Source: Clostridiaceae bacterium
GTDB taxonomy: Bacteria; Bacillota; Clostridia; DSM-8532
Length of the DNA stretch: 36,076 nucleotides
Assembly (NCBI GenBank): GCA_012520615.1
Contig: JAAYNX010000240.1
Span: 1-36,076, forward strand
Direction of reading: 5' to 3'
Shown here: positions 22,373 through 23,806 of the stretch, in pieces
Layout: each line of letters begins with the position of its first letter
Position numbering within the stretch: position 1 is the first letter of the stretch
Position numbers and translations under genes: made by a program
The notes under the pieces: generated by a model
Seen by the model: the letters and a program-made list of their open reading frames with translations, nothing else
Databases searched by the model: none
What the model was told of the DNA's origin: nothing

Positions 22373-23806
22373 CTAAGTGCATGGTTGCCCTGCTAATTTG
22401 CATATTTCTTTAAATGCAATTCCTATGCTTTTTTGCTCTTCTGTACTTAAATGAAACGGATTCATAACCGAAGAATAAAATACCGGTTCATTGCAACTCA
22501 AAAGTTTTTTAATTTTCTGCTTCTCATAGTTTTGAGAAACTCTTGCGGCATAAATCCACTCGTTTTTTGCAGATGATTTGATACTCCCATTACATTCAGA
22601 CAAGAGAGAATACTTCCATGGCGTACATGGGCATAAAACAAGCCTGATATCCGCATGATTAAGCGCATTTATTTTTCTCTCGGTATTAAGCTGGCCTAAA
22701 TCCAGTATTATAACATCAACGCCTTTTCTGGATATTCCCCCAAAATCAGAAGCACTTGAATAGAAGGTCAAATCTTTTGTTTCAAAACGGTTCTCGCATT
22801 GAATTTTGACCTCTCCCAACTCATCTAAGTACTCTCTCAACCTATTAAAATCCCCGCTGGAATTCAGTTCAACCAATACTGATTTTATTTTGTTGCAGGA
22901 TAAATACTTCCCTAATGTAAGACAAAACGAGGTTACACCACTGGAAGGAATTATGGATGAAATTCCTATTACCCCTTTAAAGACTTTTTTCGCTTCAGAT
23001 GCAGGATTGCGCTTAAAGAAAAAGTTTACAGGGTTTGCTATCCTGCCAAGTTCCTCTATAGCTTCATTACATGACTGAAATCTTTTATCTGAATCTGTTT
23101 CAGTGAGTTTTAATAAAAAACGTGTAAAGCTTTGAGTTATGCCTGCTTTTCTCAATGATTCTTTTGTTTTTCCCGAACCTAGTTTTAACGGATGAATACC
23201 GGTAGCTAGATGAATAATTGTCATCCCTAGATTAAACAAGTCAGTTCTTTCATCGCTCTGGCCTATGCCGTATTGCTCCGGTGCTGCGTAGCCCTGAGTG
23301 CCTATGTATATGGTATCAGCTAAAGCTTCATTTGAGTGATATCTGGCTGTGCCAAAGTCTACAAGCCTTAGTCGTCCAGAGTCATCTACTATTAAATTGG
23401 CTGGTTTTAAGTCCCTGTATATTATTGGAGGTGTTCTGCCATGAAGATATGAAAGAACATCCAAAAGTTCTTCCGTCCACTTGTGAAGCATCTTTTCAGG
23501 CGCCTTCCCTATGCTTTCTATAATACTTAGCAGATTTGACCCAGAAATGTAGTCCATAACTATGTAATAATTATCTGCATCGTCTGTTAAATCTGCTATT
23601 CTAGGAAGCATGGGGTGGCTTAACTCTTTTAATATTTCTATTTCTTCCAGATCAAAGGCAAGCCAAGGGCTACTTTTTGATAGAACCTTAATGGCCCAGA
23701 AATTGTTTAATACCATGTTTTCAGCAAGGTATACAGTAGATGTGCCTCCCCTGCCCAATAGTTCTACAATCTTATATTTATTGTTTAATATTTCGCCGAT
23801 TTTCAT
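22373..23806 (-). CDS. Ser/Thr protein kinase fused to a degenerate CpaE/MinD-like domain
   Basis: This 477-residue protein is the first gene of the Tad-like locus. The Hanks-type kinase domain (about 11-255) is complete: glycine loop GRGGTSTVY (18-26), catalytic Lys40 in AIK, YRDLKPAN (Asp132), DFG (150-152) and APEQYG (175-180). After a short linker, residues 278-477 resemble a MinD/CpaE-type P-loop domain: VIGISSIIPSSGVTSF replaces the Walker A loop without its lysines, SVLVELNSSGDF stands for the second motif and VDVIILDLGQ for Walker B. There is no membrane segment and there are no PASTA repeats. It probably phosphorylates components of the secretion machine and docks on them through the MinD-like part. 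The ribosome binding site is weak (AGGTG). Confidence 0.8.
   Translation of the reverse strand: MKIGEILNNKYKIVELLGRGGTSTVYLAENMVLNNFWAIKVLSKSSPWLAFDLEEIEILKELSHPMLPRIADLTDDADNYYIVMDYISGSNLLSIIESIGKAPEKMLHKWTEELLDVLSYLHGRTPPIIYRDLKPANLIVDDSGRLRLVDFGTARYHSNEALADTIYIGTQGYAAPEQYGIGQSDERTDLFNLGMTIIHLATGIHPLKLGSGKTKESLRKAGITQSFTRFLLKLTETDSDKRFQSCNEAIEELGRIANPVNFFFKRNPASEAKKVFKGVIGISSIIPSSGVTSFCLTLGKYLSCNKIKSVLVELNSSGDFNRLREYLDELGEVKIQCENRFETKDLTFYSSASDFGGISRKGVDVIILDLGQLNTERKINALNHADIRLVLCPCTPWKYSLLSECNGSIKSSAKNEWIYAARVSQNYEKQKIKKLLSCNEPVFYSSVMNPFHLSTEEQKSIGIAFKEICKLAGQPCT

Follow-up and report, generated by a model that had tools for sequence, protein, structure and literature searches.

The window analysed here is a 36,076-nucleotide stretch of Clostridiaceae bacterium DNA (GenBank assembly GCA_012520615.1, contig JAAYNX010000240.1, positions 1 to 36,076). 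On its minus strand, positions 22373-23806 hold a single uninterrupted frame of 477 amino acids, assigned from the open reading frame, Pfam and synteny as a Hanks kinase fused to a pseudo-MinD domain; the plus strand across the same positions is full of stops, and an earlier note on this DNA had left the strand unstated. Residues 10-252 (23051-23779) match the Pkinase family (PF00069, E 4.6e-42), and the landmark positions G18, K40, E55, D132, K134, N137, D150, T165, T170, E177, D189 and G194 are each conserved in 30/30 relatives, the activation-loop threonines T165 and T170 included. The family match, together with the catalytic lysine, the HRD-type aspartate, the asparagine, the DFG aspartate and the APE glutamate, places the protein among the Hanks Ser/Thr kinases, and with all catalytic residues kept—as the earlier note had read from the letters—it is an active-looking kinase. 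The NCBIfam model PknB_PASTA_kin also matches the kinase part (E 1.3e-42), far below that model's cut-off. The kinase domain is related to that of the PrkC/PknB-type Hanks kinases, from which the fusion protein differs by having no PASTA domains and by its pseudo-MinD C-terminus. The sole other match in the source genome is a kinase-like frame on contig C205, with 38% identity over residues 2-208.

The fusion gene is the first of ten operon genes that share this strand and either overlap slightly or have short gaps between them: kinase-pseudoMinD, SAF/CpaB, P215, TadZ, TadA, TadBC, three small membrane proteins and a 333-residue protein. A consensus scan picks out a terminator-like 14-bp hairpin on the minus strand (23992-24023), between hisE and the kinase gene, so that the operon probably starts at the latter. 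Directly after the fusion gene comes a SAF/CpaB-like protein of 261 aa (21574-22359; PF08666 E 2.6e-6, CpaB TIGR03177 E 7e-4 and below cut-off), then P215 (215 aa, 20860-21507) and a TadZ-like protein of 270 aa (20046-20858). The TadA-type motor ATPase by which a Tad system is recognized is the 628-aa product of 18181-20067, with an intact Walker A motif (GQQGSGKTT); it is called divergent because its TIGR03819 match (E 2.2e-7) lies below the curated cut-off. The 685-aa product of 16151-18208 is a putative fused TadB-TadC-like membrane platform, assigned from position, size, hydrophobic segments and its status as a conserved neighbour, and has no Pfam family. Sequence and synteny identify the three small proteins as pilin-like with a hydrophobic N-terminal segment (192 aa, 15534-16112), membrane or pseudopilin-like (140 aa, 15108-15530) and membrane or TadE-like (184 aa, 14540-15094). 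The tenth gene (13552-14553, placed by synteny) encodes 333 residues with a hydrophobic N-terminal segment and a C-terminal Ada-type zinc-binding motif; the PF02805 match (E 7.4e-5) is barely over the gathering score, and such a motif is odd in a pilus operon. Pfam and NCBIfam gave no match to a canonical Flp pilin or a prepilin peptidase among the operon genes, and recognized no WXG100 or EccC/EssC genes among the ten. The source genome (G000) holds a second, conventional TadA on another contig (C214:23175-24260; 50% identity to a classical TadA), so that the window operon would represent an additional, divergent Tad-type machine, and two Tad-type machines probably coexist in this genome. Elsewhere in the window, positions 25675-27645 encode a PnrA/Bmp-like substrate-binding domain behind an N-terminal part of about 300 residues of unknown kind.

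Residues 270-477 of the fusion protein were recognized by no Pfam or NCBIfam family, and a profile of the C-terminal domain gave weak matches in the PDB (SRP54, ParA, MinD and Wzc-type), which is why the fold assignment rests on a model. The structure prediction that the earlier note had suggested was run, and the resulting AlphaFold2 model of the domain (residues ~275-477, 22376-22984) has a pLDDT of 90.3 and a pTM of 0.87. Its best Foldseek match is FlhG (4rz3, E 1.4e-6), followed by Soj, MinD, BcsQ and FleN. The VIA-align list, with ParF (4e07, Z 16.9, 181 residues, 2.9 A), FleN (Z 16.8) and FlhG (Z 15.7), consists of MinD/ParA-fold proteins throughout. As modelled, then, the C-terminal domain is a MinD/ParA fold; the model and its structural matches do not show a receiver or sensor fold, which was the outcome that would have refuted the earlier note.

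The motifs that had suggested a MinD layout are all in place: LVELNSSGD at residues 311-319 in the switch-I region (22850-22876), and VDVIILDLG with G371 and D369, the Walker-B/switch-II aspartate (22700-22702). The P-loop, given earlier as PSSGVTS without lysine, reads IIPSSGVTS at residues 285-293 (22928-22954). Domain conservation was counted in an alignment of 30 homologous C-terminal domains (A1), where the Walker-A lysine position holds V, A, T or L and the first, signature lysine of the P-loop is absent in 30/30; the MinD/ParA motif KGGxGK[TS] with its two lysines thus occurs in none of them. The aspartate characteristic of MinD/ParA proteins is kept as D369 in all 30. From these residues we propose that the domain has ceased to act as a conventional ATPase, and the retention of T292 and D369 makes it likely that it still binds Mg/nucleotide to some extent or has a strict structural role.

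This conservation is also an argument for an alternative in which the pseudo-MinD domain is a lysine-less Mg-nucleotide binder that gates the dimerization and trans-autophosphorylation of its own kinase, K398 or a lysine from a partner being able to stand in for the Walker lysine. A dead pocket should drift, yet G290, T292, D369 and G371 are invariant in the 30 relatives, as is W397 in the W397-K398 pair that is the hallmark of the domain (22613-22618; K398 in 29/30), and the motifs can still be recognized in more distant kinase fusions. Outside the 30 relatives, however, K398 is replaced by Q, R or E. We judge nucleotide gating rather improbable, and it would be compatible with the ring-subunit explanation given below rather than exclude it.

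Of the reading as a degenerate CpaE/MinD-like domain, the lysine-less MinD fold stands, and "CpaE" proved too specific for the window copy. In hhalign, the C-terminal domain and the window TadZ reach 91.7%, over 104 columns only; Eubacterium rectale TadZ is absent among the structural matches listed, which is no argument against kinship. The window domain, here termed type A, is part of a distinct branch of MinD domains without the lysine, whose members are also found behind other N-termini or alone. The fusion is not filed as a member of either MinD or TadZ because both the lysines and a receiver domain were looked for and are absent.

Two further MinD-type modules accompany the fusion. P215, which the earlier note had not named as the third such gene, has no family match, but its AlphaFold2 model (pLDDT 94.3) matches FlhG (Z 17.4), ParF (Z 16.8) and MinD (Z 16.2), and it is accordingly modelled as a degenerate MinD fold. 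P215 has lost the P-loop glycines, and across 20 relatives (alignment A2) only G7 and K13 are invariant, K13 sitting on the Walker-lysine column. The counterpart in Acetivibrio alkalicellulosi (L005:11957-12649), assigned by position and alignment, has an intact P-loop, GTSGVGKT. A profile comparison between P215 and TadZ gave no significant match, the connection between the two being the fold. MinD kinship of the operon TadZ is drawn from weak family and PDB profile matches; its P-loop, HGQGATS and variants, has no lysine in 20/20 relatives, and to judge from this motif the presumed partner is degenerate as well. A receiver domain is absent from both TadZ and P215. That three MinD-type modules are kept in one operon, none of them with an intact P-loop in the window, argues for scaffolding by pseudo-ATPases.

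Type-A domains were matched in 44/391 sampled clostridial genomes and, at a stricter cut-off, in 34/398 genomes of a phylum sample, and type-A fusions were found in Clostridia and in Paenibacillus-type genomes. The full kinase-pseudoMinD architecture is present as single open frames in nearly all genomes of the family, in other families and in another class. The ten-gene order is kept across the genus and the family wherever the contig permits (one genome, G010, excepted), and with minor variation in A. alkalicellulosi (L005) and HGW-Firmicutes-7 (L008). In the former, a large RHS-repeat protein (L005:3476-9124) lies directly upstream of the kinase-Tad cassette. A Paenibacillus plasmid, pHD02, carries genes for the kinase, SAF, P215-like, TadZ-like, TadA and TadB-like proteins, which are the first six genes in the same order; its annotation gives the P215-like and TadZ-like proteins as hypothetical and the ATPase as T2SS/T4P/T4SS family. 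On this plasmid the kinase-pseudoMinD frame (L195:8911-10472) is split over two frames, through either a mutation or an error in sequencing, and PLSDB lists no gene at the site. Local profiles detected kinase plus pseudo-MinD in further families, in several cases with CpaB next, and all the fusions examined from them are without the Walker lysine. Judged from sequence and gene order, the fusion is widely distributed and old, with conserved synteny to CpaB/TadZ/TadA, and the earlier picture of an active-looking kinase joined to a degenerate MinD domain in a Tad-type operon is thereby extended to further families.

Type-A domains without a kinase are found in proteins of ~340-470 aa with another N-terminus or as stand-alone proteins. 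By eye these N-termini are receiver-like; two were tested and gave no convincing Pfam match. Four element-like loci (L112, L116, L117 and L121) hold CpaB/CpaE/TadA/TadB/TadC-like genes and one protein each that ends in a type-A domain behind a non-kinase N-terminus; L112 additionally carries a TraG/VirB4-like ATPase. At L119:2091-6644 a non-kinase N-terminus plus type-A domain adjoins WXG100 genes and resembles TsfV of T7SSf (PMC11217815).

A second group of fusions, type B, has kinases ~43% identical and a C-terminal domain without any P-loop (alignment A4). This domain aligns with TadZ in hhalign at 96.2% (E 2.4e-9, 219 columns), and by this profile comparison type-B fusions are closer TadZ/CpaE relatives than the type-A copy in the window. 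They occur in about 16 clostridial families, usually directly ahead of TadA. In a survey of 18 loci from A4 matches, chosen for long frames, kinase plus type-B domain was present in 18/18 and TadA lay downstream in 12/18; at two further loci the contig ends at once after the fusion. At seven loci (L172-L174, L177, L179, L180 and L184) TadA and two membrane proteins, in size like TadB/TadC, come straight after the fusion, and motif and profile searches recognized no other MinD-like gene there, an absence that is not proof. The type-B kinases tested were confirmed by Pfam, some being weaker and possibly degenerate. In the kinase tree, type A and core type B form a moderately supported group (85/91) separate from the unfused kinases, and several long-branched type-B kinases are unplaced. 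hhalign found no relation between the type-A and type-B C-terminal domains, so a single family for both is unsupported and the parallel in kinase fusion could rest on two independent fusions. The simplest reading of tree and profiles would be a single kinase lineage that carries either of two MinD-type tails.

Some fusions lie apart from Tad genes. In G010 (81% complete) an intact kinase occupies the usual site without a recognizable divergent TadA; this orphan kinase-pseudoMinD gene (contig C169, L071:12581-13996) is flanked by trxR and his genes; a radical-SAM-like gene adjoins it, and the Tad cassette is gone. In the clostridial family f27, two genomes (G265 and G331) have fusions away from recognizable Tad genes, and in each case a small pseudo-MinD gene of its own comes directly behind (L111:8093-10215, L128:8339-10253). 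Both cases suggest that the kinase/pseudo-MinD unit can work outside a Tad context, and the f27 loci with their adjoining gene also fit a pairing of two pseudo-MinD modules. The same loci speak for a second alternative, that the domain is a general dimerization module of a kinase merely encoded beside Tad genes, with no docking. Against it stand the place of the gene at the head of the operon, constant throughout the family, the kinase-CpaB start that recurs in other families of the phylum, and the second fusion type with TadA usually following, and we consider it unlikely. A one-off or artefactual fusion, by an assembly join or a lost stop codon, has next to no probability, and chance is excluded because nearly all genomes of the family, and others beyond it, share the full architecture.

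Known systems offer partial parallels. In an ordinary Tad machine, CpaE/TadZ joins a receiver to a MinD-type ATPase, dimerizes and encircles the motor hexamer CpaF/TadA. A Caulobacter model from cryo-ET places six CpaE dimers around a CpaF hexamer; CpaE consists of a receiver and a MinD-type ATPase, and contacts between dimers are likely made via the REC domains (PMC13170226). In a passage of that paper citing Xu 2012, TadZ is described with an atypical ATPase domain (PMC13170226). Like Caulobacter CpaE and E. rectale TadZ, the fusion joins a signalling-type N-terminal domain to a MinD-fold C-terminus, and its gene likewise lies in a Tad locus beside CpaB and TadA. It differs from them in having a kinase in place of the atypical receiver, in lacking the Walker and signature lysines, and in sharing its operon with separate TadZ and P215 genes. 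In Bacillus subtilis, a MinD-type protein anchors the kinase PtkA at the pole and stimulates it, and MinD and SalA also contact the Hanks kinases YabT and PrkD (PMC4205851). There, MinD and PtkA are separate proteins and PtkA is a BY-kinase, whereas the window protein carries a Hanks kinase and a lysine-less MinD domain in one covalent chain. Variants of type VII secretion have Ser/Thr kinases, TscD and TsdD, and a TadZ-like protein, TsfV, in their secretion loci, and T7SSg adjoins Tad genes in Acetivibrio and Paenibacillus (PMC11217815). TscD and TsdD are membrane kinases for which no MinD domain is described, unlike the window fusion, and TsfV has an atypical receiver domain where the fusion has a kinase (PMC11217815). 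Searches of the literature, mostly open-access, turned up no account of a Tad locus whose Hanks kinase is joined to a MinD-type domain. Tad machinery itself is known; what we file as new is a machine of this type in which a kinase occupies the CpaE/TadZ position.

The analysis shows the fold, the catalytic residues, the lysine loss, the operon position, the recurrence across families and the second fusion type. Beyond this we favour, with moderate confidence, an explanation in which the fusion protein is a ring subunit akin to TadZ/CpaE that has a kinase in place of the receiver domain and so brings phosphorylation to the motor. The swap is proposed because TadZ and P215 have no receiver and, of the operon's MinD-type modules, just the one with the kinase is extended at its N-terminus. 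Docking on the secretion machine we infer from the gene order and from the role of CpaE in other Tad systems. The pseudo-MinD domain would pair with TadZ, P215 or both, and the paired MinD-fold subunits would form a cytoplasmic ring around TadA in which kinase domains are held in place of receivers. From there the kinase could phosphorylate the motor, the platform or CpaB-like parts as well as neighbouring kinases, and this phosphorylation may switch assembly or secretion on or off. Much more tentatively, and with doubt prevailing, this may be generalized to a Tad lineage of the Bacillota that uses a Hanks kinase for the CpaE/TadZ receiver, combines it with either of two MinD-type tails, and has a ring of lysine-less MinD-fold subunits that phosphorylation both holds together and switches, with no ATP-driven dimer cycle.

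Through this analysis P215 is now identified as a MinD-fold gene. The cues for when and where Tad motors assemble are poorly understood, and the role of the CpaE/TadZ receiver is unsettled; a natural exchange of the receiver for a kinase would, if true, mark the receiver slot as a regulatory input.
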